From a virus, in the IMG/VR virus record IMGVR_UViG_3300022745_000153, positions 1 through 22,236 of that record: a DNA stretch of 22,236 nucleotides; one strand, 5' to 3'. Of the stretch, positions 1-18,779 are shown piece by piece. Under the pieces are notes generated by a model, which ran no database searches, was not told where the DNA came from, and saw only the letters and a list, made by a program, of their open reading frames with translations. Positions within the stretch are counted from its first letter, which is position 1, and every line of letters starts with the position of its first letter. The translations under genes were made by a program, and so were the position numbers.

Positions 1-767
1 GGTACCGCGAAAGTGCTGGGCGGCCCCTCCGACACGATGCCCACGGACGGCACGCGCACCGACACGTTCGAAGTATTCCCGGAATTCAAAGCCCGCGCCC
101 AGAAACGGAGGATGGGGTTTTGCAGGGAGGTAGCTGTCGCCGTATTCGGATAGTTGATTTGGTGGACGAGTACGAATTCCCCGGATGGCAGCTCCATCTG
201 GAAGCGGATGACGCCGAAGCCCAGCCACTGGTAGGCGATGGAGTAGACATTGCCCTTCGTCACGTTGAACGTGGGGCGCACGCCGTTCCACGCCGTCTGG
301 GGGATGAACGTCTCGGCGCCGTTATTGCGGTGGAAAATCCCGAAGGTGGCCCCGCTGCACCCGAAGAAGAAGCCGTCGGTGGTATTCCCGATGCCGACTT
401 CCTGCCGGGAGTTGGCCGTGCACGTGGTCCACACAGCGGTGAAGCGGACCCGGACGCCCTGCCCGGGAGTGTACCGCGTGGCCGCTCGGCTCTGGAGGAC
501 GGCCGAGGCCGTGGCACCCGTACCCGTGGCGATGACGGCCATGTTGGCCGACTGGGTGATTGTACCGCCGTCCGTCGAGGCCGTGACGAGGTCCGTGTTG
601 ATGCCGTACTGAAAGGTGTACCCGGCGAGGGGGAATTCCTGCGTCACCTTCTCAGCGCCGAAGATGCCCTTACTGGAGTCGGCCCGGTTGTAGGTTCCCT
701 GGGGGACATTCAGGTTAGGGCTCGTCTGAGCGAGTAGCAGCCCCAGCAATATTGGACCGGTAAGCAT
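1..767 (-). CDS. Putative phage surface/fibre protein with signal-like N-terminus (C-terminus beyond window)
   Basis: The reading frame is open from an ATG at 767 to the left edge, giving 255 codons with no stop, so the C-terminus is missing. The ATG follows the TAA of the upstream gene directly, and GGAG lies 6 bases upstream. The first residues, MLTGPILLGLLLAQTSP, form a short hydrophobic leader without a basic n-region. The body contains YTFQYGINTDLVT, RYTPGQGVRVRFTAVW, EVGIGNTTDGFFFG and NVYSIAYQWLGFGVIRFQ. I recognise this series of motifs from phage virion or appendage proteins, probably a beta-rich binding domain. Two cysteines are visible. As last gene of the virion operon, after another fibre-like protein, a host-surface or capsid-appendage role is likely. 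The leader is odd for a virion part. Family recognition is from memory; the exact function is unknown. Confidence 0.75.
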   Translation of the reverse strand, partial: MLTGPILLGLLLAQTSPNLNVPQGTYNRADSSKGIFGAEKVTQEFPLAGYTFQYGINTDLVTASTDGGTITQSANMAVIATGTGATASAVLQSRAATRYTPGQGVRVRFTAVWTTCTANSRQEVGIGNTTDGFFFGCSGATFGIFHRNNGAETFIPQTAWNGVRPTFNVTKGNVYSIAYQWLGFGVIRFQMELPSGEFVLVHQINYPNTATATSLQNPILRFWARALNSGNTSNVSVRVPSVGIVSEGPPSTFAV

Positions 768-1352
768 TTACAGCTCCGTGTCCGGGTCTTCCCCGAGGAC
801 GACTGCGCAGCTGGCCCCCATGGCCTCCACCTTCTGACAGGTACCCGCCAGCATAGCGGCCGGCCTCACATTCATTTCACCTGGGTTGCCGCCATCAGTG
901 AGGGTACACGCGCCGAAGCCGGCGTCGGTATTCTTCCGGAGACAGCGGGAGATACGGGCCTCGAGCACGAGGGGCAGGGCAGCGCCCCACTTCGCGCAGA
1001 CGGCCGGCCTCGAAGCGCACGCTACGAGGGTGCAGTTTTCCCAGTCCGGCTGGATGCCTTCGCGCGCGTCCTGCCGAATGGGCGGCAGCGAGACGTCACG
1101 TCCGCCGTCGGGCAGCACGAGGAGAGACACGGGGAAGGAGAGGCGCTCGTAGGTGTGCACGGTGACGCCGGCCGCGAGGGCGTCGGCTTTCAACTCGGGA
1201 CTGATTCTGACTGGGCACGTGGCGACGTGCGTCGGAGACTTCCCGGCGTCGGCGAGGAATGCCGACTGCTGGGCGACGTTTCCGCCCTGCACGAGGTACA
1301 CGGAAAACGAGAGGGCGCCAACGGCAACGACAGTGATGAGGGCGCGTCGCAT
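768..1352 (-). CDS. Unknown Cys-rich protein with N-terminal membrane/signal segment
   Basis: This is a 194-residue protein. I chose the ATG at 1352 because it overlaps the preceding stop as TAATG and is preceded by GAGG 7-8 bases upstream; an upstream in-frame start would run into the previous gene. The N-terminus MRRALITVVAVGALSFSVYLV has a basic n-region and one hydrophobic helix, either a signal peptide or a membrane anchor. The remainder carries eight cysteines and DAG, DGG and TDGG tripeptides, which suggests a disulfide-bonded protein outside the cytoplasm. I do not recognise a domain. It lies between two fibre-like genes that also have hydrophobic leaders. It could be an accessory surface protein, a virion part, a superinfection-exclusion factor or a lysis accessory; the sequence does not decide between these. 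Confidence 0.75.
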   Translation of the reverse strand: MRRALITVVAVGALSFSVYLVQGGNVAQQSAFLADAGKSPTHVATCPVRISPELKADALAAGVTVHTYERLSFPVSLLVLPDGGRDVSLPPIRQDAREGIQPDWENCTLVACASRPAVCAKWGAALPLVLEARISRCLRKNTDAGFGACTLTDGGNPGEMNVRPAAMLAGTCQKVEAMGASCAVVLGEDPDTEL

Positions 1353-2701
1353 TACCGGCACCTCGCCAGCGAACCATCCCAGCAAACCTGTTTGACGACA
1401 CCGTCGAGATGATTGACTCCAACGGTGTTGTCGGCGAGTCCAGTGGCGTTTGCGTTAGGGCCGAGTCCGTCGGTTAAGGCCGTGGGGCCGCTAAAAAGCG
1501 CGCCATTGACATACACGTTTCCAAATCCTCCACCAGAAGACGCGGCCAAGCGAAGTGGAGTATTGGCGGTGACGGTGATGGAGGCCGTCGTGAAGCTCAC
1601 GAAGGCCGCGCCAGTGCCGTTTTGCACGCGAAGTCCACCGCCCGCGAAAAACAAATCTGAACCGGTAAACGGCGCCTTTTCGCCCATCAGGATGCTGGGC
1701 AGGGCTGGTTCATTCGCAGTGGTCCACGGCACGATGATGGTCGCGGCTTTTGAGTACGGCGAGCCGGGGAGTGTCGAGCCGTTGAAGGCGGCCGTTTCAA
1801 GACTCCGCGTCGCCGCCGCGCTGGTGGTGGGGATGTAGCTGGTGGCGTAGGCGCCGGCCTCGACTTGGGCGCCCCACACGAAGACGTCGCCAGCGCCCGT
1901 ATTGCCCGGGTTAGGGCTGATGACCCCCGAGTTGTTGATGCACCCAATGTAGAATTCGTCCGGTGCTGCGCCTCCGGTATTTGAGACGATGCACCGTGTC
2001 CACGTCGTCGAGTTATACGCGCATGTGGCGCCCTTATACGGCAACGCGTTGCTGCTGCCGGACACCAGTCCAATATTGCCGGAGGTGCCGTTGCCCTTCA
2101 CATACACGCTGGAGGAGTGCGCGGCCGCCAGACTGAATATTTGATAGATGCCGCTGGTGGTTGGGTCGGTTGGGCACGCCGTAAATTGCAGCCGCTCGGC
2201 CGTCGTGGTGCCATCGGGCGCAACGGCTTGGTCGGCCGTAACCGTAACGGCTCCGGCGGTAACGAGTTTAAGCCACACCGCGTTGTCCAGTTCCGAGCTC
2301 CGCAGTGCCGAATTCGTCCGCGCCGACTCCACCAGCAGGCCCAGCGCCCCAGTGCCATCACCGCCCGGCATGACGCGCGGCTGGTTGGTGCTGCACACCA
2401 CCAAGTCGCCATTGGCGATGGAGGCCGAGACGTTGCCCTTCATGCACGTCGCGCTGCTGCCCCGCGTAAACGTCAGCACCTCGCCTTTCGCGCCCGTCGG
2501 CGTGGTGCAGGCGCACGCCGTCCCCATACCCGCTCCTGAAGCCGGCGCGAATTCGAAAAACGCGTACGCTGGCCCGCCCCGCGGCGCGTTGCGCCCCCAC
2601 GCCCGCATGCCCTCGCGCCACATCCTCTCCGTATGCGTCGACGTTTCGCCCGTCCCGGTAGAATAGGACTGGGCCAACACCATGAGCAGGGCTGTCAGCA
2701 T
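1352..2701 (-). CDS. Putative tail-fibre/carbohydrate-binding protein with LamG-like C-terminus
   Basis: This is a 449-residue protein with GGAGG 4-5 bases before the ATG. It begins MLTALLMVLAQSYSTG, a short hydrophobic leader. Residues 119-300 match a module seen in many phage fibre proteins: GLLVESARTNSALRSSELDN, then TADQAVAPDGTTTAERLQF, then a beta-rich stretch ending in GAQVEAGAYATSYIPT and a TRS motif. This module is thought to bind glycans. Residues 310-449 look like a concanavalin/LamG-type sandwich (NVYVNGALFSG, GVVKQVCWDG). Ten cysteines are present, unusual for a cytoplasmically assembled fibre. No N-terminal virion-anchoring domain is visible. It stands after the ejection proteins, where fibres are common. 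Binding to a host surface polysaccharide is the best guess; trimer formation is not evident from the sequence. Confidence 0.8.
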   Translation of the reverse strand: MLTALLMVLAQSYSTGTGETSTHTERMWREGMRAWGRNAPRGGPAYAFFEFAPASGAGMGTACACTTPTGAKGEVLTFTRGSSATCMKGNVSASIANGDLVVCSTNQPRVMPGGDGTGALGLLVESARTNSALRSSELDNAVWLKLVTAGAVTVTADQAVAPDGTTTAERLQFTACPTDPTTSGIYQIFSLAAAHSSSVYVKGNGTSGNIGLVSGSSNALPYKGATCAYNSTTWTRCIVSNTGGAAPDEFYIGCINNSGVISPNPGNTGAGDVFVWGAQVEAGAYATSYIPTTSAAATRSLETAAFNGSTLPGSPYSKAATIIVPWTTANEPALPSILMGEKAPFTGSDLFFAGGGLRVQNGTGAAFVSFTTASITVTANTPLRLAASSGGGFGNVYVNGALFSGPTALTDGLGPNANATGLADNTVGVNHLDGVVKQVCWDGSLARCR

Positions 2702-2713
2702 CGGTCCTCCCGG

Positions 2714-3112
2714 TTACTTAGCCTGCCACGGCTTCGGGCGCTTCGTCGTCGCGAACTTGCACGTTCCGCCGTCCGTGACGCCGCGCACTGAGATGGTCGT
2801 CTCGTTGCTGTCCAGGTACACGGGGACGGGGTCGAGGTTATTCGTGAAGTCCACGCGGAGGTCCGAAGACGACGCCGCGGCTCCCGCCGTGCTATTCACG
2901 AAGACGTCATTGGTGCACTGCATCAGCACTGTAGACCCCTTCGCCCAGACGCACGTACCCGTGCCGCCATCGCCCGGGCCGGCGTCGGTGGATGGCACCG
3001 ACACGGTAGAGACGAAGGATGTGAAACAGACGACGGGCTCCGCCGCCCACACGGCCGCCGCGAGGAGGGCCGCCACGACTACAGCGAGTTTGAGGTGGTT
3101 TTTGGGTTGCAT
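2714..3112 (-). CDS. Small exported protein, function unknown
   Basis: This is a 132-residue protein. The start is supported by AAGGAG 8 bases upstream, where the SD overlaps the stop of the 928-residue gene as TAAGGAG. It has a textbook signal peptide: basic MQPKNHLK, hydrophobic LAVVVAALLAAAV and a likely cleavage site after WAA. The mature part has four cysteines, a DAGPGDGGTG linker and beta-type alternation (DLRVDFTNNLDPVPVYLDS). It looks like a small disulfide-stabilised beta domain. I do not recognise the family. It is the first of four consecutive genes with export-like N-termini, directly after the cysteine-free ejection proteins. Export through Sec is the firmest prediction; it could be a periplasmic, envelope or virion-associated protein. 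Confidence 0.8.
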   Translation of the reverse strand: MQPKNHLKLAVVVAALLAAAVWAAEPVVCFTSFVSTVSVPSTDAGPGDGGTGTCVWAKGSTVLMQCTNDVFVNSTAGAAASSSDLRVDFTNNLDPVPVYLDSNETTISVRGVTDGGTCKFATTKRPKPWQAK

Positions 3113-3124
3113 TTTTACGGCTCC

Positions 3125-5911
3125 TTACCGCTTTTCAAGGCGTTGGCCCTGGGTTTCCATGTTTTCCTGCGCGTCGACTTTCTGGCGCCCGTCGGGCTGG
3201 GGGCCCTGCTGGGGATTCCCCTGCTTGGCGTGGAAGCCCTGTACCACCTGCATCTGCTGTGGATTCATGGCGGGGCCTCCGAAAAGCTGCTGAAAACCGG
3301 TGCGCTGGGCAGCGGTGAGTTGCCCCTTATTCATACGCTCCATCATCTTCCTTTGCAAGTCCGAGTACATGGCGGGATACACGGTTTGCAGGACTTTGAT
3401 GGCGTCTCGGGGTACGACACCCGTGCCCGCCTGAGCCACTACCTTGGCGGGGTTCTGGACGGCGTCCAGCATCCGGTACCACCGCGCCAGTTCCGCCGGG
3501 GAGGGCTCCCACGGGCGCTTCAGGGCCAGGGGCAGACCAGCGCCGGGGTCCTTCGGGGCGGCATCAGCCAACATCTGCAGGGCCGTCACGGCCGTAGATA
3601 CTGCCTGCCCGGAGATGGCTGGAGTGCCGCCCATCATCTTCGAGGGCAGCGACTCGTACAGCGCCGTCGGGTTGGAAAGGATAGAATGGACATTTTGCAG
3701 CTTCATCTGGAAGTCCTTGAAGCTGCCCCGCGGGGCCTTATTGGCCGCGCCACCGTTGAAGAAACTGTCGATGTGGACGTCGTTCATGCGCCCCTTCGAG
3801 TCGCTGAAGGACGCGATGGAATTGACGACACCCGCCTGTTCGTCCCCCTCGCCGGGGGCTTCGGGCTGCAGGCCCATGGCGCGCATGTACTCCGGGGCGT
3901 CGGTCGTCTGCATGATGCGGGCGTGTTCCGCCACGAGGGCCTCGTTGCCCTTCGCAGCCGCCCGATTCAGCAGCACCCGGAAGCTGTCGCCGCCCATTAC
4001 CTGAGACAGGCCTTCCATGCGCTGGGCGATGCCCTTGGCGGCTCTATCCAGCAGACTTCCCCGGGCCCCACCGCGCAGCGCGTCCGACACCATGAAACCC
4101 CACCGCGGATTGAGGTACTGCTTCCCGAGGAGTTCCGCGATGCCGAGGCCGGGGTGGGCACTGAGGAGGGCCCCGGCGAGGAAGCCGGCGTTGGCCCCAT
4201 TCTTCTTCATGGAGTTGGCCACGGTGGTGGAGATGGCGTCCGTCACTTCGCTGGCCAGTTTGTACTGTTCCGCGGACACGGCCAGCTGCTCGGCCACCGC
4301 GCCCTCGGGGGCCACCTTTCGGGCCGCGGCGAGGATGTCCTCGAAGTGCGACTTCCCACCGGCGCCGGTAATCTCCCGTTCCATACGCGCCAACTCGGAC
4401 CACGTCGGAGCAGACGCGCCTTCCAGAGATGCGGCTTCCTCAACCAGCGCCCGGTGCTTCGCCGACATCGTGGGCGGCTCGAAGGGCTTGAAGTCCTCGA
4501 GAACGGGCAGGGGCTTCGTCTTGGGCGCTACGAATTCGGGAATCTCCTTCTTGACGGCCGCGATGGGGTCAGGGGGCTTGAACTCGGGGGCCGTCTCGAA
4601 GACATGGTCCGGATTCTTCTTCCACTTCGCGAGGACCTTCTCATGGTCGGCCTTGGCCTTGGCCAGTACCTTCTCATAGGCCGCCTTGGCCTTGGCCTCA
4701 GCTGCCGCGTTCCCTTCAGTGATTTTCGCGACGAGCTTGTCGTGGGCCTCAAGCGCCGCCGTCTCGATGGCGTCGTTCTGAACCTGGGTGCCGTGGAGGT
4801 TTGCGGCATGCTCGACGGTGGCCTTCGTGACGGCCTCATCGTAGGCGGCCTTGGCCTTGTAGAGGTTGGCCGAATGCGCGGCGTCGAGGCCGCCGAGGGC
4901 CTCTTGAACATCGGGAAAGCGGGCGGCGTTGTCCGTCTGAGCCGCCATAGCCTCCACCTTGCCGATGAGGCTGGGGTCTTCCACTCGGCGAGCCTCGGAG
5001 GCCATGCGCCGGAGTAGTTCTTTCGTCACGTCCTCGGAAGGCGGGGCGATGTTGTCCAGCACGGGCATCACTGCGCCGGCACCCTTCTTGGTGGCCTCTC
5101 GAACCGCGATGGCGTGCGCTTCCATGGCCGTATCGGACACTGAGGCCTTGCCGGACGTGATGCCGTGTTGGCGCATGAACTCGATGTGCGCGTCCGTAAG
5201 AGGGACGTCGAACATCTGCTTCTCGCTCCAGTTCGCGGCAGTCGTAGCGGCCTTATTCAAATCCGTGGTGCCCACCTTCCGGGCGCCCTTCTCGACCAGT
5301 CCCGCGACGCCGTGGGCCGCCACCCCGAGGACTCCGCCCGCGACTCCGTTCCCCACGAGGGACGTCACCACATGCTCCGTAGTGATGGGTATGTCGAGGG
5401 TAGACTCGGACACCAGCTGCCCGACGCCCATACCAACGCCCTCGAGGGCCCCCTTCGTCGCCACGGCCTTCGCGCCCGCGAGGCCCGCTTTCGCGGTTAC
5501 CTTCGCCGCGCCTTTGGTAAGCGCACCGGCCACACCCACTTCGGGAGCCAACACGGCAGCGCCGAAACCCAGCACCTTGCCGGCTGTGGCTGCCCCGGTT
5601 TCATCGCGCGCCCGGAGACGCATAGCCATCTCTTCCGGGTCCACGCCATCATCCCGGTTGAACATGCGCGTCAACTGCCCGCCCTGATTCAGCCGATTGA
5701 TGATAGGTTCCGCGAAGCCGAAGCTGGCCTCGCGCATGGCCCCTTCCGCGAAGGACAATAGCGGGTGCTTGTCGGCCTCCTCGGTAGCGATTTCCTCTTT
5801 CGTCTGGGTACGCCCAGTGAAGCCGCGGTTCGCCAAGTCCTGAAGGTTAGCGCCTTCGGCCGGCAGGACGACGGGCTTCCCCGACGGGTCTATGAGGTAG
5901 AGGTTCGCCAT
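3125..5911 (-). CDS. Large internal virion / DNA-ejection protein (putative)
   Basis: This is a 928-residue protein. Its ATG lies just after the preceding TAG; the SD is weak, so translation may be coupled. The N-terminus (MANLYLIDPSGKPVVLPAEG) resembles a recurrent start of large phage internal proteins that feed a parameter-like strand and then a helical region. Residues 106-213 are an Ala/Gly/Val-rich hydrophobic segment that could insert in membranes. Residues 343-435 are strongly helical and Ala/Lys/Glu-rich, probably coiled coil, followed by a Pro/Lys linker to about 482. A second hydrophobic stretch lies near 572-597. The C-terminus is Gln/Pro-rich. There is no cysteine. Size, helical content and position between nozzle and fibres match ejection proteins that form a channel across the host envelope. 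No lytic-transglycosylase motif was seen. Assigned by context, not by a definite domain match. Confidence 0.75.
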   Translation of the reverse strand: MANLYLIDPSGKPVVLPAEGANLQDLANRGFTGRTQTKEEIATEEADKHPLLSFAEGAMREASFGFAEPIINRLNQGGQLTRMFNRDDGVDPEEMAMRLRARDETGAATAGKVLGFGAAVLAPEVGVAGALTKGAAKVTAKAGLAGAKAVATKGALEGVGMGVGQLVSESTLDIPITTEHVVTSLVGNGVAGGVLGVAAHGVAGLVEKGARKVGTTDLNKAATTAANWSEKQMFDVPLTDAHIEFMRQHGITSGKASVSDTAMEAHAIAVREATKKGAGAVMPVLDNIAPPSEDVTKELLRRMASEARRVEDPSLIGKVEAMAAQTDNAARFPDVQEALGGLDAAHSANLYKAKAAYDEAVTKATVEHAANLHGTQVQNDAIETAALEAHDKLVAKITEGNAAAEAKAKAAYEKVLAKAKADHEKVLAKWKKNPDHVFETAPEFKPPDPIAAVKKEIPEFVAPKTKPLPVLEDFKPFEPPTMSAKHRALVEEAASLEGASAPTWSELARMEREITGAGGKSHFEDILAAARKVAPEGAVAEQLAVSAEQYKLASEVTDAISTTVANSMKKNGANAGFLAGALLSAHPGLGIAELLGKQYLNPRWGFMVSDALRGGARGSLLDRAAKGIAQRMEGLSQVMGGDSFRVLLNRAAAKGNEALVAEHARIMQTTDAPEYMRAMGLQPEAPGEGDEQAGVVNSIASFSDSKGRMNDVHIDSFFNGGAANKAPRGSFKDFQMKLQNVHSILSNPTALYESLPSKMMGGTPAISGQAVSTAVTALQMLADAAPKDPGAGLPLALKRPWEPSPAELARWYRMLDAVQNPAKVVAQAGTGVVPRDAIKVLQTVYPAMYSDLQRKMMERMNKGQLTAAQRTGFQQLFGGPAMNPQQMQVVQGFHAKQGNPQQGPQPDGRQKVDAQENMETQGQRLEKR

Positions 5912-5914
5912 GGA

Positions 5915-8320
5915 CTACTCGCTTTCTGTAGCGGGAGCAGCGGGGCCTTCATCACCAAACTTCTTCCAGTCAATCTTCGCCGCGATTTCAGGCGGGATGT
6001 CGGCGGCGGAGCCGCCCTTCGACAGGATGTCCTGGATAACCTTCGAGTCCGTATCGAGGTCCTGAACGAGGTTGTCGATGAGCAACTTGGACTGCTGCGT
6101 CTTCAGCAACCCGAGGCCCGTCTTGCTCTTGATGTCCTTCAGCATGTTCGCGATAGGCGCGTACCATCCCGCCGACTGGTAGGCCTTCGTGAGCTCGGCG
6201 GTGAGGGCCGCCTCTTGGTCTGGGTCCATGACGCCGACAGCCTGCATGCCGCGGCCGACGTCCGTCTTACGGAATTCATCGAGGGCCCGAGTCTTACCCG
6301 CGGTGCGGGCATTGACCATTGTCTGCACCCGCTTCGCGATTTCCAAACCCGACTGGAACTTGCCGAGGATGCGCAGGGTAGCCGCTTGGCCTTTCGTGGT
6401 GCCGTTCTGTGCTTTGGCCGCTATCTGCGCTTTTACCCGGGCATCGGCGCGGTCCGCGTTGTACTTGGCCGTGACGAACTGCATCCGCAAGTGCGCGTTG
6501 TTCGTCTCATTGGCGTTGAGGGCCGCGACTTCGGCATTCTTATTCGCGAGACCCTGGTCCATGTAGGCTATTTGCTTTTCACGGGCGGCATTGATGACAC
6601 CCTGTGCCTGCATCTGAACACCGGCATTGGCCACGCTACGCGACAGGTTGGACACCATCGTTTCGATGCCCTTCCACGCCGCGGCCTTCTGAAGTTCGAT
6701 GGTGCCGGCGCGGTATTCGCCCGTGTCTAGAGCGTCCTTCGCGCTGAACTTGAAGCCCTCTGCCTTGGCCTGCAGCCCCGCTACCGCTGCCGAGCGGTCC
6801 GCTTGCTGCAGCTTGACATCTCGGTCCACCAGCCCGTCGAGGTGCTGCAGCCACTCCATGCCCTTCCCGCCGAAGCCGAAGAGCGCGCCGGCGATGACGG
6901 CAGACACCTTCTGCCCGGTGCTTCGGGAGTTCCAGAACCTATCGGGGTCCGTAGCCTGTGAGGCCCGGCGGGCAGCGTCATCCAGCGCCTGTCGGTAATC
7001 GGACATGAACTCTTCATGGGCCTTCACCGCGCGGTCGCGCATGCCCACTTGCAGCTTGGTCATCTCCTGCTGCTTCAGCGTTTCAGCCAGCGCCGCGTCG
7101 CGAACCCGGTCCGTCTCCTCCTGAATCTTCTTCTGGAGTCCCTCAGTTTTGGCGACCGCCTCGTCCGAGAACTCTGCCTGCAGGGCGTCCTGCTCGGCCG
7201 TGCGCTGCTGGAACGGAGTGTGCTTCGCCTGAGGTATACCGGGCAGCGGGACTTCCGGAATGCCGGCGCCTGCCGCGGCCCCCGGGGGAGCGACGACGGG
7301 GCGGGCTTGCCGGGCCGGCAGCTGGGTGGTTGCGGGATTGATTTTCTGGGTGCCAGTGGCGCCCATGGCCTTGGCGGCGTCATATCCGGCCGCGATGGCC
7401 GGATTCGTGACAAGGCCCGTGCCGACGTCGCCGACAGCATTCCCGACGAGCTGGCCCACAGTGCCCACGTCCTCGGCGACGGGCACCGTAGGGGTGCCCT
7501 CGACGGGCGGGCTGGACATGCCCACACCGGCGTCGGAGGCTTCGGTGGGGGCTGGGACGCCGGAGGCGTCGGTGGGTAGCGCCCCCGCCGTCATGCTACC
7601 TACCATGTTCCCCACAGGTAGACCCTTGAAACTGCCGCCGCCGCGCACCTCGGAGTCCGTCTCCTCCGCATCTTCCTGGGGGTTGATGCCGCGTTTCTTC
7701 ACTACGTTGGCGGGGGCCTCAGTGGGAATTTCCTTGGCCAGCGGCATCTCGGCGATGCGCGCTTTCTCGGAGTCGACCTCGGCCTGGAGGCTGTTTTCCG
7801 CGTCAGTCCACGCCTTCACCTTTTCATCTTTGGGCAGGGCATCAAACCGCTTCCGGGACTCGGAGCCGGGAGGATAGAATTTGTCGATGGTTTTTCGGGC
7901 CCCGGGGCCTATGACGAACTCACCTTCGGGCTTCGGCAGTTTCGACAACTCGGCGGCGCGCTCGGATGCGCGGACGGCTTCCAGCTTCTCGCGGGCCTCG
8001 CCCTTGGGGAACACGGCATCGAGCCGGTCCGGCCGCGCGGGGATGTCCTCGTTTCGGAGTGACTCTTTGATGGCCCTCGAGGCCCCCGTAACCTTCGGGT
8101 CCTCGGGTGCATTGAGTGGCGGCTTCTCGGCGTCGAAGTCCGGAGGGCCACCGCGCATAGCCTTTTGTTCGTCCTCGATTTTTACCAGCTGGGCCCACTT
8201 CTCGTCCGACATCCGGTGCTCGCCCCGCCCGCGGTAGATTTGCCTACCGTTGATGGTGACGAAGTCCATGCTGTCGTCTCGAGGCTCGGCGGCGGCGACG
8301 GCGTCTGAAAGGTTGGCCAT
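5915..8320 (-). CDS. Large internal virion / ejection protein (putative)
   Basis: This is an 801-residue protein. AAGGAG lies 5 bases before the ATG, in the arrangement TAAGGAG where the previous stop is part of the SD. Residues 1-220 are charged and Pro-rich. Residues 230-365 are a Gly/Pro/Val/Ala-rich, low-complexity linker. Residues 370-455 are long charged helices. Residues 461-500 contain RFWNSRSTGQKVSAVIAGAL, then a glycine turn and a VDRDVKLQQA helix. I recall this motif from structural proteins of other phages and proteobacterial prophages. The rest is helical and Ala/Gln-rich. There is no cysteine. The hydrophobic patch at about 471-487 could contact membrane. Position and architecture fit an ejection protein partnering the next, 928-residue one. 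Confidence 0.75.
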   Translation of the reverse strand: MANLSDAVAAAEPRDDSMDFVTINGRQIYRGRGEHRMSDEKWAQLVKIEDEQKAMRGGPPDFDAEKPPLNAPEDPKVTGASRAIKESLRNEDIPARPDRLDAVFPKGEAREKLEAVRASERAAELSKLPKPEGEFVIGPGARKTIDKFYPPGSESRKRFDALPKDEKVKAWTDAENSLQAEVDSEKARIAEMPLAKEIPTEAPANVVKKRGINPQEDAEETDSEVRGGGSFKGLPVGNMVGSMTAGALPTDASGVPAPTEASDAGVGMSSPPVEGTPTVPVAEDVGTVGQLVGNAVGDVGTGLVTNPAIAAGYDAAKAMGATGTQKINPATTQLPARQARPVVAPPGAAAGAGIPEVPLPGIPQAKHTPFQQRTAEQDALQAEFSDEAVAKTEGLQKKIQEETDRVRDAALAETLKQQEMTKLQVGMRDRAVKAHEEFMSDYRQALDDAARRASQATDPDRFWNSRSTGQKVSAVIAGALFGFGGKGMEWLQHLDGLVDRDVKLQQADRSAAVAGLQAKAEGFKFSAKDALDTGEYRAGTIELQKAAAWKGIETMVSNLSRSVANAGVQMQAQGVINAAREKQIAYMDQGLANKNAEVAALNANETNNAHLRMQFVTAKYNADRADARVKAQIAAKAQNGTTKGQAATLRILGKFQSGLEIAKRVQTMVNARTAGKTRALDEFRKTDVGRGMQAVGVMDPDQEAALTAELTKAYQSAGWYAPIANMLKDIKSKTGLGLLKTQQSKLLIDNLVQDLDTDSKVIQDILSKGGSAADIPPEIAAKIDWKKFGDEGPAAPATESE

Positions 8321-8329
8321 GGTAACTCC

Positions 8330-9103
8330 TTACTTCAAGACGCCGCCGATTGCACCGCCGGCGGGCCCGCCGAAGAGGCTCAGCACCGTACCGAGGCCGT
8401 TGGCCGCGGCCTTGCCAGCGCCCATCATCTCGCGAATCTTGTTTCCGTAGATGGCGTTAATCATCGCGTTTCGCTGGGAGTCGTACTGCGCGCCCGACAC
8501 GTCCAGCGTATTGCCCATGTTATGGGCCGCGGCGTTGACGTTGTTGTTCAACCCGGTAGCCTGCAGGCCGAAGCCTTGGTTGGCCCCGAATTGCCCGAGG
8601 TCCTGCCCGCGGAGCCCGCCGGCCGACTGCCCGGCCGCGCCGAGGAGACCCATCTGCTCATTGAGTTGGCCCTGCCCGCGCTGGGCGGCCAGCTGGCCCA
8701 TGGCCTGCATGATGGCCGGGTTGTCCACGGACGTACCCCGGGCATTTCGGGCGGCCGCGTTGAACATCTGGTTTTGCTGGAGGTTGTTCTGGAGGCCCGA
8801 CACTTCCCCACCGCCGCGGGCCATAGCCATCAAGGCCTGCAGGGCCTGCACCTGTTCCGGGCGAGCCTGCCCGGCCATGGCGTTGTCGTAGGGATTCTGG
8901 AAGTTGCCGCGGGCCGCCAGTTCCGCGATGCGAGCGCGCATGGCGGGCGTATCCGCGTGGGGGACGTTCCCCAACACGCGGTCGGTATCTTGGGTCGCGA
9001 ATTCCCGCATGCCGTTTTCCGACACACGGTGGGGGTTGAAACCGAGTTCGGCACCGATGTCGGTGACCGCATTTCCAAGCCAGCCAAGAGGGTCGAATCC
9101 CAT
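8330..9103 (-). CDS. Gln/Asn/Gly/Ala-rich putative internal virion protein
   Basis: This is a 257-residue protein. CTAAGGAGATACC precedes the ATG, so the stop of the upstream gene forms part of the SD. The N-terminus is an amphipathic hydrophobic stretch (FDPLGWLGNAVTDIGAELGF). The middle, residues 75-220, is rich in Gln, Asn, Ala, Gly and Met and probably helical (for example NLQQNQMFNAAARNARGTS). The C-terminus, GLGTVLSLFGGPAGGAIGG, is a glycine-rich hydrophobic segment resembling membrane-active peptides. There is no cysteine. Composition and layout resemble the 291-residue neighbour, and the pair may be distant paralogues. I infer a small ejection or internal protein that helps genome delivery; no domain was recognised with certainty. 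Confidence 0.75.
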   Translation of the reverse strand: MGFDPLGWLGNAVTDIGAELGFNPHRVSENGMREFATQDTDRVLGNVPHADTPAMRARIAELAARGNFQNPYDNAMAGQARPEQVQALQALMAMARGGGEVSGLQNNLQQNQMFNAAARNARGTSVDNPAIMQAMGQLAAQRGQGQLNEQMGLLGAAGQSAGGLRGQDLGQFGANQGFGLQATGLNNNVNAAAHNMGNTLDVSGAQYDSQRNAMINAIYGNKIREMMGAGKAAANGLGTVLSLFGGPAGGAIGGVLK

Positions 9104-9112
9104 GGTATCTCC

Positions 9113-9988
9113 TTAGGCGATGCCGGACGTGCCGGCTGGGGTGTTGAAATCGCCCATAGGGCTGGCCCCGCCGCCCGCGGGTGCATTCGTGCCGAAGGCC
9201 TTCATGGCCGCCCCCGCCCCGCCCGCCAGCGCCTGAGCCAGCTGCTGCATGAACGCGGTATTCATCTGGCTCATGTCGTTCTCGAGCCCGAGGTTATTCT
9301 GAGCGGTATTCATGCCGATGCCCTGCATTGAGTTCGCCCGTCCGATGTCGCTGCCGAGGATGGATTGCAGGAAATTATTCCCGAGGCCCTGCGCTCCAGT
9401 GAGGCCCGTGGCCAGAGTGTTGGCGTACCCCATGTCTCCCGCGCGCATCTGGGCGTAGGCCTGCTGGAGGGCCAGCGTGGCCGCTTGCTGCTGCTGGGCC
9501 ATGAGCGCCGCGGCGTTGCCGCCCTGCTGCATCGTCAGCTGGCTCTGGGCATTGTTGATGGCCTGGTTATTGGCGCCCACGCCGCCGAAGCCGCGGTGGA
9601 GGGACGCGAGGGACTGGGTGTTCCCGCGGGCCGTGTCGTAGCCCTGACGGAGGCCCTGCTGGGCCGCGGAGTTCCTATCGCCCATGGCCAGCTGGTGGAG
9701 CTGCTGGATGAGAGCGTTTTGAAAGGAACGGTCGACGTCGTCGTTCCCGGGGATGGGGTGCACGCCGGCGTCTTGCGGGGGCGGCTGAAAGGGGTGCCAT
9801 GGGACCCGAGGGTCAGAGGGCTGATTCTCGGCCGGAGGTGGACGTCCGATGCCGCCGCCCACCTGTCCCGTCGGATTCCCATAGGCCCCGCTTCCCGGTG
9901 CGAGACCGCCGACGCCGGACTGCCCGGTGTCGTTCTCGTACTGGTCGCCGTAGCCTCCGATGAGGCCGCCTTCATTGATGTTCGCCAT
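9113..9988 (-). CDS. Gly-rich N-terminus, Gln/Ala-rich putative internal virion protein
   Basis: This is a 291-residue protein. AGAGG stands 7 bases before the ATG, overlapping the end region of the nozzle gene. Residues 1-85 are Gly/Pro/Asp-rich and probably disordered. Residues 85-250 form Gln/Ala/Asn/Met-rich helices, including a run AAALMAQQQQAATLALQQAY and repeated LG-N-(N/D) patterns (GLGNNFLQSILGSDIGRANS, NNLGLENDMSQMNTAF). Residues 250-265 are an Ala/Gly-rich hydrophobic stretch. There is no cysteine. It directly follows the nozzle, the usual place for the first small ejection protein in podovirus gene order. A role in the capsid core or ejection complex is inferred from position and composition only. 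Confidence 0.75.
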   Translation of the reverse strand: MANINEGGLIGGYGDQYENDTGQSGVGGLAPGSGAYGNPTGQVGGGIGRPPPAENQPSDPRVPWHPFQPPPQDAGVHPIPGNDDVDRSFQNALIQQLHQLAMGDRNSAAQQGLRQGYDTARGNTQSLASLHRGFGGVGANNQAINNAQSQLTMQQGGNAAALMAQQQQAATLALQQAYAQMRAGDMGYANTLATGLTGAQGLGNNFLQSILGSDIGRANSMQGIGMNTAQNNLGLENDMSQMNTAFMQQLAQALAGGAGAAMKAFGTNAPAGGGASPMGDFNTPAGTSGIA

Positions 9989-9989
9989 C

Positions 9990-12900
9990 TTAGAACCTCT
10001 GGGAAGTCGGGAGTTTGGCCACGCCGCCCTTCACTCCAACAAGTAAATTCAGCGACGTCAAGCGCGTGGGCGCATTGTTCGAGTACATCGAAATGCTGAG
10101 CTTCAACGACTGGCACTTCTGCACTTCGAAGAGGTGCTCGAACTGGAGCCGGCCATTGGCGTCGGCCGTGGCCGAGAAATCCGTGGCGGTACCGGCGGCC
10201 CCATCGAAGTACGGCGTGAGGGTGCCGTTGATAACCCCATTGGCCACAGTAGTACCCACCACCTGTAGGCGGTAAACGCGCTGGAAACCCTGGATGCCGG
10301 CGAAAGACATCTCTCCGGTAGTGATGCGCTGGAGGATTTCCCAGTCGGCGTCATGGTCGAAATCATTCCCCGCGTGGGCGCCGGCATATGCCGAGTCGTA
10401 CCGCACCAAATACTCGGACCCGAGTGGCCCGGTGGCCTGCGTCGATGCGAAAACCGGACCGAGGTCCTTGGTAACCGCCATATCAGTCAGGTTGCCGACA
10501 AGGGGCGAAGGAACTCCGAGTCGGCTCCACTGGCGCCACGTCCAGTTCCAGACATGCACGGGAGACCATACATCGAAACTAGCGCCTGCTTCCGTGTAGC
10601 CGCCCGTCAGGTCCGCGAACCAGACCTCATGCACGTCCTTGCGAACCCCGGCGACGATGGTGCCGTCGGCGGGGACGAGGCTGTCGATTTCGCTACCGAG
10701 TTCGCGCCCCTCCTGCGTAGTCGCCAGCTGGCCATCATTCTGCACGAGCCGGAGGCCGCCATTCGCGTGGTACCAGATGCCTTCCCGAGTATGGACGACG
10801 GAGTTGGGGCTCTGCCACCGGGCGCCCTCGTGCGTGGCGAGGATGATTTCGGAGAAGTTGTCCTGGTCGCCAGATGGCGTGGGGCCGGTACCGTAGATGA
10901 CGCCCAGCTGATTTTCGCAGAAAACGGCGAGGCGGCTCTCCATCTCCGCGGTGGCCACGACGCGGCCGAAACCTTGGGGAGAACGGCGACCGAAATCGAT
11001 GGAGTGCTCCGGGGCGATGCCGCGGTCCAGTACCTGAGAGAACACGAGGTCATGCCCATCGCTACAGCCTGAGTACCACAGCCGCCCGCCGAACTCCTCG
11101 ATGTGCCTACACGCTGGAGGCGGGTCGTTCGGTTTGATGCCGCCGGAGGTGGGGAGCGCCGTGGAGCCTGTGATGGTGGAATCCGCAGCCGTGACGGTCA
11201 TCGTAGCCGTCGCCGTAGTGGCCACCGACAAGTCGTTGAGGACATCCTGCTCGTACAGCAGTTTTTCGCCCAAGGGGCCACCGGCCACGCCGGAGCGGTA
11301 CAGCCGAATGCGGGCGCGCCGCATGCGCGTGAGGCCCAGTAGGCCCACCGTTACAGTGATGCAGTGTGAGGCCGCCAGCGTAATTGTCTGAATGTTGCTT
11401 GGGGCACTCTCGTGCCAGTTACCTTGGGAATCTTCCCACTGGTATGTACAGGCGATGCTGTAGACGCCGGCGCTGAGGCTCCCGGCGCCGCCGTCGGCCA
11501 GTGAGACCCACGGGCGGAAGTTGAACCCCGCTTCGACCATGTCTCGCCCGTCGAACCATTGGGGACATCCGCCGGCCAGCATCAGACATCCCTGAGTCTC
11601 GATGGACCCCAGCTGGCCGCGGGATAGCGCGGGGGGCGAAAGGACGGCCCGCGCTACGTACCAAGGACTGACGTTGGTGGACCCGTCGGTGTCCGACTTC
11701 CCGGTCCATCGGGTAAATGGGAATGAAAGCCGCCCGTCGTACAGTACCGAGACGTGCAGCGGCGGGAGGCCGAAGGCCCAAAAGGACCCGCCGCAGTTTC
11801 CGTACTCGGGCCGACTGACGACCACCGGCGGGGTGTTGTCATACGTAGTATCTGGCGAGGTGCCCCGAGTCACGTCCACGACATAGATGGACGGAGATAC
11901 GAGGTCATAGCGCCGCAGCGAGAGAAGTACCCGAGCCGCGCTCGAATCGTACAGGATGTCGCCGAAGATGGGAGCGCCGATGATGGTACCGCGTTTCGCC
12001 GCGACGCCAGTCGACTTGGGCATGTTCCAGGTAAAGACGACGGTGTCATTCGGCGACGCCACCAGATAATTTTTGGTGCGCACCTCCACGGCCCCGGCCA
12101 CATCCATCGTATTCTTCGGGTCGCACGCCGTTACGCTGATGACGGAGCCGGCGGCCCACGTGGCGGCGTAGTTGAACAGCACCCCATCGGCCCCGGCAAC
12201 CCCGGCGGCCGTGACGGACACCATCCACAGCTTCGTGTCGTACACCGTGAAGAATGCGAAGTGCCGAACCGTCGTCCCGTCGTAGGTACTGAGGGCTTTA
12301 ATGTTGAGTGCTGTAGACCCGGCCGTGATGGCCGTAGTGCTGGTGGATGCTACCGTGAACCCGTCCAGATTCAGACGCAGGTGAGTGGTGTTGAAGGCCG
12401 CGGTCTCGCATGCAACATAGATTTTCCCGGCGGCGGTGTGGAAACTGGCGTCGAACAGCCCGACGATGGTCGTGATGACGTGCTCAGTGGCCAGATGGAA
12501 CAACGCGGTCGCTGAAGTGCGCACACACAGCGATGTGACCCCGCCTACTGTCTTCCGGTAGTAGAGGAAAAACAAATTGGTGCTGCCGTCGACGCGGAGC
12601 AGCTTGGGCGTGGTGTATGTGGTGGCCGCGGGCGGGTCCAATCGGAAGGTTTCCTCGACGGCTCCGGTCTGGTCGTCCAGTAGCACACCCGCGATGGCGC
12701 CAGTGGCACTGAAGGCCACGGTGTTAATCCAAGCGTACACCGACGTCTTGGCGGTAACCGACGACGCCGAGGTTACATAGGCCGGCTGCCCGGCACCCAA
12801 CGCGCCTACCGTCTGCACGTCCTGCATGTACCTGATGAAGTTGTAATCCTCGGTAGCCCCGATGGATGCCCCGTAGTCTGGGCCACCAAGGCTAGGGCTC

Positions 12901-13187
12901 ATGGACGTCGGCGCTCCCGTCTGGGCATCACGGACCGAGAAATACCCAGCCCCGCCGGCATTCACCGTATCTTCGGTGCACACGGCGCCGCGATACTCAG
13001 AGAGCCTATCGTATTGTGGCCCGTCCTCGGAGGCCATCTCGATAAACGGCTTGCGCGTCTTCAGCGTATTCGCCCCATCGAAGAGGACGTTGTCGGCCTG
13101 GAGCAACTTCGTGGTCAACATCGGGTCCGTCTTGGTATCGACGCCCTGAGTGAAGTTGATTTTAACCGGCGTTTTCTTGAGGGACAT
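9990..13187 (-). CDS. Tail nozzle / tail tubular B-like protein
   Basis: This is a 1065-residue protein. I chose the ATG at 13187 because it overlaps the previous stop as TAATG and starts MSLKKTPVKINFTQ; a longer in-frame start would add nine residues inside the upstream gene. Residues 9-47 carry INFTQGVDTKTDPMLTTK and a VLFDGANTLKTRKP segment. This is a very typical opening of podovirus nozzle proteins (xINFxQGLDTKTDPxQV...KRNG). The rest is almost entirely beta-rich, with many short propeller-like repeats, and ends in a beta-sandwich-like region. It should form the hexameric distal tail tube below the adaptor. It is large for the class; T7 gp12 is about 800 residues. The neighbours (adaptor, collar-spike candidate, ejection proteins) agree with this call. 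Confidence 0.88.
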   Translation of the reverse strand: MSLKKTPVKINFTQGVDTKTDPMLTTKLLQADNVLFDGANTLKTRKPFIEMASEDGPQYDRLSEYRGAVCTEDTVNAGGAGYFSVRDAQTGAPTSMSPSLGGPDYGASIGATEDYNFIRYMQDVQTVGALGAGQPAYVTSASSVTAKTSVYAWINTVAFSATGAIAGVLLDDQTGAVEETFRLDPPAATTYTTPKLLRVDGSTNLFFLYYRKTVGGVTSLCVRTSATALFHLATEHVITTIVGLFDASFHTAAGKIYVACETAAFNTTHLRLNLDGFTVASTSTTAITAGSTALNIKALSTYDGTTVRHFAFFTVYDTKLWMVSVTAAGVAGADGVLFNYAATWAAGSVISVTACDPKNTMDVAGAVEVRTKNYLVASPNDTVVFTWNMPKSTGVAAKRGTIIGAPIFGDILYDSSAARVLLSLRRYDLVSPSIYVVDVTRGTSPDTTYDNTPPVVVSRPEYGNCGGSFWAFGLPPLHVSVLYDGRLSFPFTRWTGKSDTDGSTNVSPWYVARAVLSPPALSRGQLGSIETQGCLMLAGGCPQWFDGRDMVEAGFNFRPWVSLADGGAGSLSAGVYSIACTYQWEDSQGNWHESAPSNIQTITLAASHCITVTVGLLGLTRMRRARIRLYRSGVAGGPLGEKLLYEQDVLNDLSVATTATATMTVTAADSTITGSTALPTSGGIKPNDPPPACRHIEEFGGRLWYSGCSDGHDLVFSQVLDRGIAPEHSIDFGRRSPQGFGRVVATAEMESRLAVFCENQLGVIYGTGPTPSGDQDNFSEIILATHEGARWQSPNSVVHTREGIWYHANGGLRLVQNDGQLATTQEGRELGSEIDSLVPADGTIVAGVRKDVHEVWFADLTGGYTEAGASFDVWSPVHVWNWTWRQWSRLGVPSPLVGNLTDMAVTKDLGPVFASTQATGPLGSEYLVRYDSAYAGAHAGNDFDHDADWEILQRITTGEMSFAGIQGFQRVYRLQVVGTTVANGVINGTLTPYFDGAAGTATDFSATADANGRLQFEHLFEVQKCQSLKLSISMYSNNAPTRLTSLNLLVGVKGGVAKLPTSQRF

Positions 13188-13486
13188 TAGAATACCCACA
13201 GGTCGACGGTGCATGCCGCCGAGGCCGTTAGATTGAACTGCGTCGCGCTCCTCGAGTCTTCCCGCACCGTCGCCAGCGTGTCATTCGTAATGACAATCCA
13301 CCCTAGCGGACTACGCCCGAGGCCGTGGTTTACCGCCGTGGACGTCGCGGCGATAGCCACATCCTTCATGATGCGCCCGTCCAGCAAGGGGCACCGAAGC
13401 AGCGCCGTCATGGGGGCCAGCAACTGGTTCTGCACCCGCTGGAGGTTTCTATCCGGGGTGTCGATGATTTGATATGGAGGCAGCAT
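13187..13486 (-). CDS. Small putative collar-spike / short neck fibre protein
   Basis: This is a 99-residue protein. The ATG directly follows the adaptor's TAG, with GGAGG 5 bases upstream inside the adaptor gene. Residues 1-40 form a helix (LQRVQNQLLAPMTALLRCPL). Residues 40-99 form a small beta domain with VNHGLGRSPLGWIVI at 52-66 and a final CTVDLWVF. I know this pattern (xVxHGLGRxPxGW...VxLWVF) from small proteins encoded between adaptor and nozzle in many short-tailed phages, where similar trimers decorate the neck as collar spikes. The identity as collar spike is an inference from pattern and position; the gene itself is secure. Confidence 0.75.
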   Translation of the reverse strand: MLPPYQIIDTPDRNLQRVQNQLLAPMTALLRCPLLDGRIMKDVAIAATSTAVNHGLGRSPLGWIVITNDTLATVREDSRSATQFNLTASAACTVDLWVF

Positions 13487-14146
13487 CTACCACCTCCAGT
13501 CGAGGCTGATGTCGTCCAAGTCGACGGCCGACTTCGGGAAGCTCTGGTCCCTGTCGTCCTTGATGCGCTGGAGTTCAGCCTCCATCTTCATCTGCTCCTG
13601 CCGAAGCGCGGTGACGTCGGATTCTTCCTTCATGAGCGCCTGGATGGCCGTCTCGATGACGATGAGTCGCTCCCAGCCGTTGGGGAAATTCACCGTGGAG
13701 GAGTCGCCCGTGAGGAGGGTGAACGTGGGCGCGTAAAACAGCGTCATCGTGAAACTTTGAGTCTTAGGCAGCACACGAATGTTGCTGCCCGTCACGCGGT
13801 ACCGTGGGTAGCCGAACCAGATGGGGATAGGATTCTGCAGCGCGTTCCGTTGTGCCCGCGTGAAGGGCCGCATCGTGCGATTCTGGCCATTGATGTTTCC
13901 GTCAACTGCGTACAGTTTGAAGAAGTCGGAGGGGAGGGCGTAGTCGGAGGTACCCGAAACGACGCTGACGGTGGAGGTGCTTTCAACGTACTCCTCCCCC
14001 ATCGCGTCAACTAGTTTTTCGTGGAGTCGCTGACCGCTTTCGTTTATCCAGAGGTTGAAATTCGCGTCGGTGATGAAAGTCGAAGAAGTCATGTCCGCAC
14101 GCTCGCGCGCACGAGCCCTGAGTACGGCGAGCGTGACGGTGGCCAT
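13487..14146 (-). CDS. Head-tail adaptor (SU10/tail tubular A-like)
   Basis: This is a 219-residue protein. The ATG follows the preceding TAA by 3 bases; no strong SD is seen, so coupling is likely. Residues 1-55 are helical with LRARARERADM and NLWINESGQRLHEKLVDAMG, and residues 69-82 read YALPSDFFKLYAVD. These are signature segments of podovirus adaptor proteins, which form a dodecameric ring between portal and nozzle. A helical C-terminus (ALMKEESDVTALRQEQMKMEAEL) follows, then the aromatic end DWRW. Length is typical for the family (about 200-230). Position between the capsid genes and the nozzle supports the call. Confidence 0.88.
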   Translation of the reverse strand: MATVTLAVLRARARERADMTSSTFITDANFNLWINESGQRLHEKLVDAMGEEYVESTSTVSVVSGTSDYALPSDFFKLYAVDGNINGQNRTMRPFTRAQRNALQNPIPIWFGYPRYRVTGSNIRVLPKTQSFTMTLFYAPTFTLLTGDSSTVNFPNGWERLIVIETAIQALMKEESDVTALRQEQMKMEAELQRIKDDRDQSFPKSAVDLDDISLDWRW

Positions 14147-14149
14147 GGC

Positions 14150-14551
14150 TTAGAACCCCGAAGGCTTCTGGGAGGTGTTCGACAGAGTGATTTCCACGTA
14201 GAGTTTCACGTCGGTGGGCAGGTCGCCAAGCGCGGGCGCGGCTGCGGAAGCCGACGTGAACGTTTTGATGGTGATGGTCTTGGTCGAAGCCACAGTCTCA
14301 GCTGTAGGCACCACGAGCCAATTGCGCGTGGTGGCATTACCGTCAAGTACGAATGCTGAGAAGTTGAGCAGCCCGGCCCATTGGTCGGACAGCGTAATGG
14401 TATACGCCCCCGAACCGGTGCGGGAAATGGTTGCCCCATTGCTCTTGATGCTGGTAGGTGCAGAAGTCGCGGCACCCGTGCAATGCAGGAACACCTTCGC
14501 GACGTCGCGCTCCAGTGTGTACGCCTGATGAGACATGTTTCTAGATGCCAT
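14150..14551 (-). CDS. Putative capsid decoration / structural protein
   Basis: This is a 133-residue protein. AAGGAG stands 8 bases before the ATG, a strong SD. It is Thr/Ser/Ala-rich and beta-strand-rich (SGAYTITLSDQWAGLLNFSA, TKTITIKTFTSASAAAPAL), with a motif LYVEITLSN near the end. I have seen small proteins of this style directly downstream of major capsid genes in short-tailed phages, where they often decorate the capsid or support the neck. No firm family match. It is separated from the capsid gene by a hairpin, which may allow different expression of the two. Confidence 0.7.
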   Translation of the reverse strand: MASRNMSHQAYTLERDVAKVFLHCTGAATSAPTSIKSNGATISRTGSGAYTITLSDQWAGLLNFSAFVLDGNATTRNWLVVPTAETVASTKTITIKTFTSASAAAPALGDLPTDVKLYVEITLSNTSQKPSGF

Positions 14552-14573
14552 GGTAGTTCTCCTTGGTTCGGAA

Positions 14574-14597
14574 GCGGGTCCCCTTGCGAGGACCCGC
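14574..14597 (-). promoter_or_regulatory. Intercistronic hairpin after the capsid gene
   Basis: A perfect 8-bp inverted repeat (GCGGGTCC / GGACCCGC) with an 8-base loop lies in the 57-base gap between the capsid stop and the next start, the largest gap between consecutive genes within the operon. In the transcribed direction no T-run follows, so it is not a classical terminator. It could be a 3' stabiliser of the capsid message, an RNase processing site or a partial attenuator. The repeat is seen directly; the role is inferred. Confidence 0.55.
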
Positions 14598-14608
14598 GAC
14601 CGGTTGGG

Positions 14609-15868
14609 TTAGCTAGGCAGAACGAGGCGCATGTTCTTGCCGGGGGCGTAGCACACCATGTTGCCGTAGAAGGCGATGCGGCCTTCGAAGCGGTCGGCCG
14701 AGGACTCTCGGCTCAGGGTGGCTCCGTCCATGTCCAGCATGTTGAACAGTTCCCCGAGGTGCTTGATTTCCCAGGTATTCAGGGTGAGCAGGCGACCCAC
14801 AGCCGCGGGAGCGTTCTGGTCGGCCATGACGCGCACATCGCCCTTGGGGCCATTGATGCGAATCGACGTGAAGCCGATATCGCCCACCTGGGTGAACTCG
14901 GTCTCAACCTTACTGCCGAGGGCGAGGTGGATGTTCTTCACGTCGGTGAAAGACGAGAAGAAGTGGCCGGGGGCCGCGCCTTCACGAGCTGCCAAAGCCA
15001 GCGCGGTGATGAGGCCTTCCTCAGGGTTGAGGCTGGAGATGTCCAGCCGCAGGCCACCGAGGCGCGTCTTGTCGACGCTGCGGTCGACGCCGAAGAAGGA
15101 CTCCAAGGCCGCGGGAGCGGTGACGGGGTTCCAACCCTCGAGCCCGACAATCTTGTTCTTCTCGGCGGTAGCCGTGATGCCGCGGTCCTTCGAGATGAAC
15201 AGGAAGTCGCCGGCGGCGAGGCCAGTGATGACGGCGGTGGCAACAGTGAAGCTGCCGGCCGCGCGGTCGATGGAGTCGATGGTCATCGTCTTGACGGTGC
15301 TGTCGCGGAGGTCCGTCGAGGACGAGGTGGGGGCCGCCTGCAGAATCATGCCGTTTTCGAAGTTGGTGATTGCCTCGCCAACGACGACGGTGACGCTGGT
15401 GGTCGAAACCACCTGGCCCAGCGAGCCGTACCCATCGCCGTACAGCATCTTCGCGGTGTCGCGACCGATGTTGTTCAGCGCCGAGTCCACTTCCGTAGTG
15501 AGCACCCGCATGAGGCTGCCCTTGTCGTCGCGGCCCGCCAGAATCGCCTCAGTCTCGAGGGTGTAAATCTGGTAGTTCTTGACGCGTCCGACGATGAACT
15601 GAACGCCCTTCGAGGCTCCGAGGACGCCGCGGGAACCGTCAGTAGTAGTGCCCTGCGCCGACGCGAAGTCAGAGTTTCGCGCGAGCTGGTCGCGATACCG
15701 GACGGCGTGGATGTGCGACTCGCCCGTAAAGCCAGTGGCCTTGGGGATGAGTGCGAGCAGAGGGTTGTCCTTGTAAACCGCGTTCTCCACCTCTCGGGGG
15801 GAATAAACGCGCTTCAGAAGGTATGCGATGGTACCGGGAGATGCGAGTGTTCCTGCTGTAGCTGCCAT
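14609..15868 (-). CDS. Major capsid protein (HK97-fold, putative)
   Basis: This is a 419-residue protein, with GAGG 10-11 bases before the ATG. The N-terminal segment (YLLKRVYSPREVENAVYKDN, then PLLALIPK) and the following GESHIHAVRYRDQ strand resemble the N-arm and E-loop region of HK97-type capsid proteins in podoviruses. Residues 110-150 (TEAILAGRDDKGSLMRVLTTEVDSAL) fit the long spine helix. A region of about residues 170-250 with DRAAGSFTVATAVITGLAAGD looks like an inserted beta domain. The C-terminal half contains typical A-domain strands. Only one cysteine. Position right after the scaffold and before decoration and adaptor makes this the only candidate for the capsid shell. Confidence 0.88.
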   Translation of the reverse strand: MAATAGTLASPGTIAYLLKRVYSPREVENAVYKDNPLLALIPKATGFTGESHIHAVRYRDQLARNSDFASAQGTTTDGSRGVLGASKGVQFIVGRVKNYQIYTLETEAILAGRDDKGSLMRVLTTEVDSALNNIGRDTAKMLYGDGYGSLGQVVSTTSVTVVVGEAITNFENGMILQAAPTSSSTDLRDSTVKTMTIDSIDRAAGSFTVATAVITGLAAGDFLFISKDRGITATAEKNKIVGLEGWNPVTAPAALESFFGVDRSVDKTRLGGLRLDISSLNPEEGLITALALAAREGAAPGHFFSSFTDVKNIHLALGSKVETEFTQVGDIGFTSIRINGPKGDVRVMADQNAPAAVGRLLTLNTWEIKHLGELFNMLDMDGATLSRESSADRFEGRIAFYGNMVCYAPGKNMRLVLPS

Positions 15869-15883
15869 TGTTGGTTACCTCGG

Positions 15884-16792: not shown

Positions 16793-16812
16793 GGGGTACT
16801 ACTCCTTTCTTG

Positions 16813-18771: not shown

Positions 18772-18779
18772 GGTTATCC

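Follow-up and report, generated by a model that had tools for sequence, protein, structure and literature searches.

A conserved block of fiber-like phage genes with probable export leaders at the end of a virion operon fragment

Textbook accounts place the assembly of tailed phages in the cytoplasm, and none of the exported phage proteins known to us is a fiber; they act in lysis or in the blocking of receptors. Here we analyze a block of four consecutive genes whose products begin with hydrophobic, export-type leaders. The window studied is the entire IMG/VR record IMGVR_UViG_3300022745_000153, which comprises 22,236 bases and is probably a fragment. The block lies downstream of a leaderless virion operon, and we refer to its products by their lengths of 132, 449, 194, and at least 255 amino acids. 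The original prediction that all four start with a hydrophobic segment was confirmed by the sequence, and a Shine-Dalgarno-like stretch precedes each gene. The features of the block are as follows, with a slash marking the putative cleavage point.

2714..3112, minus strand: 132-amino-acid putative exported protein with a small all-beta domain and 4 mature cysteines
3044-3112, minus strand: predicted general secretory (Sec) signal of the 132 protein, MQPKNHLKLAVVVAALLAAAVWA/AE, of the textbook Sec/signal peptidase I type
1352..2701, minus strand: 449-amino-acid fiber-like protein with 10 cysteines
2672-2701, minus strand: short, hydrophobic, uncharged leader of the 449 protein, MLTALLMVLA/QS
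1829..2308, minus strand: CBM4/11/22-like jelly-roll of the 449 protein (residues about 132-291), lying within the core that is homologous to the RcGTA head-spike fiber
768..1352, minus strand: 194-amino-acid cysteine-rich protein (8 cysteines) containing DGG/DAG, its ATG overlapping the TAA of the preceding gene
about 1293-1352, minus strand: probable N-terminal membrane anchor of the 194 protein, MRRALITVVAVGALSFSVYLV
3..767, minus strand: protein of at least 255 amino acids from the phrog_1645 virion structural family, running off the contig end
729-767, minus strand: short uncharged leader of the 255 protein, MLTGPILLGLLLA/QT

Leaders and their conservation in related phages

The four N-termini are of three kinds. 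Inspection together with a hydrophobicity rule identifies Sec/signal peptidase I signals across the 132 family, which displays a charged n-region, an h-region, and small residues at -3 and -1. The 194 protein starts with a charged n-region followed by about 17 hydrophobic residues and has no clear cleavage site, so we read its N-terminus as probably an anchor. The leaders of the 449 and 255 proteins both terminate in LA/Q. These short leaders span 8-13 residues and have an h-region and small residues at -3 and -1, mostly without a charged n-region. None of the 12 virion genes upstream of the block in the window encodes a hydrophobic, export-like start, as predicted for the earlier genes of the operon.

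We identified relatives of the block in two ways. A tblastn search with the 449 protein recovered two circular Manatee Spring phages, ctUh1700 (L003) and cto1L10 (L004), and an alignment-based scan of IMG/VR added 12 further loci, with L015 and L018 representing the same stretch. A pattern scan with the single 449 sequence produced no matches, and a terminase scan produced no relatives. The closest relative of the window is L002/L007, which has a capsid protein 58% identical to that of the window and ends within its 449 homolog. The resulting set of 15 homologs of the 449 protein comprises the window, L003, L004, L007-L017, and L019. All 15 retain a hydrophobic leader, which answers in the affirmative whether the leaders are conserved along with the fiber domains. 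The leaders themselves are diverse, as illustrated by MLTIALALALAA, MFALLLSLALAQ, MRAALLVALWAAVTWAQ, and MSLPRLALALLALALLAAP. The L003 ortholog carries a lipobox leader (MLKRASLAVLLLGAMGC) and the L017 ortholog a classical signal (MRAALLVALWAAVTWA/QS), while the others have short leaders. Such swaps of leader type between orthologs are what the conservation of routing, as opposed to that of a docking surface, would predict.

The neighboring genes are likewise recurrent. In 13 of the 15 loci, the gene directly upstream of the 449 homolog encodes a small protein bearing a classical Sec signal. Homologs of the 132 protein are found in L003, L004, L009, L012, L015, L016, and L019; other signal-bearing genes occupy the same position in L007, L008, L013, L014, and L017; and L010 and L011 are the exceptions. 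An N-anchored, cysteine-rich protein of the 194 type follows the 449 homolog in seven loci, including the window, and the order 132-type, 449, and 194-type recurs in L004, L009, L012, L015, L016, and L019. Additional leadered proteins are encoded downstream of the block in L003, L004, L008, L013, L015, and L019, and a GG(L/F)G-type motif in several of them reads to us as resembling classic tail-fiber repeats. The four genes had been described as the last of the virion operon. They are the last on the 22-kb fragment, but in relatives, they are followed by further leadered genes and then by lysis-type genes. Judged by sequence comparison, at least a dozen tailed phages, all uncultured and including podovirus-like ones, share the conserved block.

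Across the related phages, 32 of 40 block proteins have a leader by a strict rule, compared to 4 of 63 upstream virion proteins (Fisher 6e-15, a nominal value because the set contains homologs). Only 1.6% of random internal 30-mers pass the same rule. The eight block proteins that fail it have P, H, Q, or R within or adjacent to a short hydrophobic window, and hydrophobicity itself is not lacking.

Cysteine pairing and adhesin ancestry

Cysteine content also sets the leadered proteins apart and supports export independently of the leaders. Cysteines account for 2.7% of residues in the block versus 0.42% in the upstream virion proteins, an about fivefold difference when all leadered proteins (2.71%) are compared to leaderless ones (0.52%). 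Counted after removal of the leader, at cleavage points placed by eye, the cysteine number is even in 37 of the 39 complete leadered proteins, ranging from 4 to 14. In several of them, an odd cysteine of the precursor sits in the signal or lipobox and is gone once the leader is removed. Among leaderless virion proteins that contain cysteine, 11 of 31 have an even count. Five later-found genes in the same slots, all with classical signals, encode 6, 4, 2, 4, and 2 mature cysteines, bringing the even total to 42 of 44. The cysteine number varies widely among the 449 orthologs (6 to 14, and 17 in a single case), which suggests that gains and losses of cysteine come in twos. Parity of this sort is a signature of disulfides and fits an oxidizing compartment. 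Leaderless homologs of the 449 and 255 domains in other phages are cysteine poor (0-0.99%), and in the jumbo-phage homolog, which has no leader, Gly and Tyr stand in place of C116 and C137 of the 255 protein. The composition of the leadered proteins, rich in Cys, DGG, and Ser/Thr, differs from that of the remaining phage proteome; DGG tripeptides are about sevenfold and DAG tripeptides 2.6-fold over expectation, in the leadered proteins only.

The 449 and 255 proteins are related to known virion proteins. Pfam yielded no domain above the cut-off in any of the 132, 449, 194, and 255 proteins. The 449 protein matches PHROG tail families (1e-19) and the 255 protein matches phrog_1645, a virion structural protein (5e-33), so the prediction that two of the four carry fiber domains was right in substance. 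A profile of the 449 family matches the RcGTA head spike fiber Rcc01080 (PDB 6tb9) over profile positions 104-303 (E 6e-22) and, with an E value of 2e-7, Pbunavirus baseplate proteins. The structure model of the 449 protein has a mean predicted local distance difference test (pLDDT) score of 46 and a usable region of about residues 140-285; residues 132-291 compare to CBM folds and to the Pa193 and E217 baseplate proteins with Z scores of about 9-12. RcGTA head spike fibers bind the capsule (PMC10218006), and homology to them makes the 449 protein, on sequence grounds, a glycan-binding-type adhesin by descent. Neither the 194 nor the 132 family has a confident PDB match. The 132 protein, encoded where an RcGTA-type head spike would have its jelly-roll base protein, is small and all-beta, with a poor model (pLDDT 52) lacking a convincing solved match, and its fold matches are not interpreted because of that low confidence.

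Each of these known relatives also differs from the block. The RcGTA fiber Rcc01080 (GhsB; PDB 6tb9 and 6tba) shares a homologous core with the 449 protein, is a capsule-binding adhesin, and has a hydrophobic N-terminus of about 10 residues. However, this peptide has regular Ile/Leu-x spacing and docks in the virion base pentamer (PMC7296036), whereas the 449 family has irregular leaders that mostly end in LA/Q, one lipobox ortholog, and abundant paired cysteines. The Pbunavirus triplex or baseplate wedge protein (E217 gp45 and Pa193 gp46) resembles the 449 protein in its jelly-roll region (E 2e-7; Z 9.8-11.6), but it is part of a contractile baseplate, and its relative in Epa7 has no leader and is poor in cysteine. 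The 255 protein is homologous over residues 17-252 to phrog_1645 proteins of Synechococcus myophages and their relatives, yet the homologs in jumbo phage LR745208, phiGT1, and L020 have no leader and only 1-2 cysteines in 406-489 amino acids.

Export and its alternatives

We consider export of the block proteins to be likely on the strength of their sequence features. The original prediction had offered fiber-like proteins displayed on or secreted from the infected cell. Export, the first half of that proposal, is the best supported of the readings through leader conservation, cysteine pairing, the lipobox ortholog, and the 132 signals; the role after export does not share this support. The block likely represents phage adhesins moved into an export pathway, which would be unusual for tailed phages. 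Signal sequences have been reported for lysis-module proteins (PMC3765740; PMC3338817), and we found no report of signal sequences on tailed-phage fibers in the literature searched, the coverage of which was partial. Several observations weigh against export and the fuller account that builds on it below. The 449 and 255 leaders lack a charged n-region and, at 8-13 residues, are very short for Sec signals; the hydrophobic N-terminus of the homologous RcGTA fiber serves virion docking; many of the counted proteins are homologous, so the nominal p-values for leaders and cysteines overstate the evidence; and both structure models are of low confidence, with a mean pLDDT of 46 for the 449 protein and 52 for the 132 protein.

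A fuller account, to which we give about an even chance, sees the block as a glycan-binding module that is exported by Sec, held together by disulfides, and active in the infected cell's envelope. The host Sec system would export the block proteins, and the oxidizing periplasm would lock them by disulfides. Some of them would be retained in the envelope by the 194-type protein or, in one phage, by a lipid anchor. Late in infection, the targets of the exported proteins may then be glycans of the host itself, on its surface or in its periplasm, similar in kind to the receptors that their virion relatives use. Such receptor masking would keep sibling phages and progeny from being wasted on the dying cell or on debris from it. 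It is the most likely role judging by domain type and has an analogy in T5 Llp and phi80 Cor, exported or lipid-anchored phage envelope proteins that mask receptors and block superinfection. Unlike the block, these are small, unrelated to fibers, and not encoded in a multigene block within a virion operon. If true, the block would constitute a superinfection-control or release system made from virion adhesins, or else a case of tailed-phage fibers maturing in the periplasm. Cysteine parity also provides a cheap marker for finding such proteins in other viromes.

Maturation in the periplasm, which we judge unlikely though worth serious weight, would make the block proteins true virion fibers that are Sec exported, locked by disulfides, and joined to cytoplasmic heads or tails only at lysis. 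Their domains are those of virion adhesins, and the addition of P22 tailspikes to heads is a last assembly step that proceeds in vitro. Both of the scanned L004 proteins matching tail or tail-fiber PHROGs (198 and 405 amino acids) are leadered, and both L003 and L004 also have leadered fiber-like genes inside their virion operons. However, release would be impeded by the lipid anchor of one ortholog and by the anchoring of a partner, and no precedent appeared in the literature searched. L003 and L011 also encode leaderless fiber candidates (C1q-like in L003 and fiber-like in L011), so the virion may have adhesins other than the exported proteins.

Virion docking was the second reading originally put forward, and we find it somewhat less probable still. 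The short N-termini of the 449 and 255 proteins would be plugs by which ordinary fibers, assembled in the cytoplasm, are fixed to a base protein in the particle. RcGTA provides the precedent: residues 2-10 of Rcc01080 (IALGLGLGL) dock as a star into the base pentamer (PMC7296036), so a hydrophobic N-terminus in the 449 family, with its homologous core, can be a virion plug. With about 10 residues, the hydrophobic RcGTA peptide (PMC7296036; PMC10218006) is similar in length to the short 449 and 255 leaders, which are uncharged, and the block genes occupy the tail-fiber position of the virion operon. The leaders nevertheless lack the constant register of large hydrophobic residues seen in the star peptide. 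Of the 15 leaders in the 449 family, four have large hydrophobics at every one of positions 2, 4, 6, 8, and 10, and the window's own is not among them. Leaders range in length from 8 to 16 residues and more, and leader pairs are 44% identical, compared to 66% for the core and 39% for shuffled leaders. In addition, 18 of 22 leaders end in a small residue plus Q ([AGS]Q), across nonhomologous proteins and including classical signals. Docking is a serious rival for the short leaders, yet it leaves unexplained the cysteine parity, the lipobox ortholog in L003 and the classical-signal orthologs, and the classical signals or anchors of the adjoining 132 and 194 families. For the 449 and 255 proteins, the leader features and cysteine parity tentatively favor export over docking, as far as sequence can tell.

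A host-derived cassette of secreted proteins picked up by the phage, the third reading proposed, is highly improbable: the leadered composition (rich in Cys, DGG, and Ser/Thr) resembles secreted proteins of some hosts, but the 449 and 255 proteins are homologous to phage virion proteins, and a pattern search of 84,980 species genomes in genome_contigs, sensitive to fairly close relatives only, found no cellular relatives of the 449 or 194 protein and hence no prophage or host cassette. The DGG enrichment is possibly a host signature. DGG/DAG enrichment recalls secreted proteins of Myxococcota, a resemblance we take to be a lead and not a test; MYXO-CTERM had no match, and no control genome gave a positive signal either.

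Upstream operon and further genes in the relatives

The virion operon upstream of the block contains the following genes, listed from the block side.

3125..20553, minus strand: leaderless virion operon encoding 12 proteins
First members: large internal or ejection-type proteins of 928 and 801 amino acids, then proteins of 257, 291, 1074, and 99 amino acids
Middle members: SU10-type adaptor (219 amino acids), a 133-amino-acid protein, major capsid protein (419 amino acids), and scaffold-like protein (302 amino acids)
Last members: portal protein (652 amino acids) and terminase large subunit (514 amino acids)

The 928- and 801-amino-acid proteins (window positions 3125-8320) stand in the place of ejection proteins and match no PHROG or Pfam family above the cut-off. 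The former has a homolog in L002 with 32% identity.

Further genes stand out in the Manatee Spring phages. In L003 (MW202637), positions 21212-21724, at the place of the 194-type gene, encode a predicted lipoprotein of 170 amino acids with a zinc-protease-like HELFH motif and no Pfam hit. The signal-bearing 112-amino-acid gene at L003 19405-19743 is absent from the annotation of GenBank record MW202637, as is the anchored 263-amino-acid gene at L004 14086-14877 from that of MW202477. Leadered, cysteine-paired proteins are also encoded within the virion operon at L003 7661-8101, L003 11829-12362, and L004 4804-5400, one directly after the capsid gene and two after proteins of 834 and 649 amino acids. 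The product of L004 4804-5400 matches a tail fiber PHROG.

Leaderless candidates are found in two of the relatives. L011 encodes proteins of 320 and 179 amino acids that read like fibers. By eye, the late region of L003 holds a candidate fiber with a C1q-like knob (about 21988-22443) and, adjoining it, a CHAP-like endolysin candidate (22346-23002), both leaderless.

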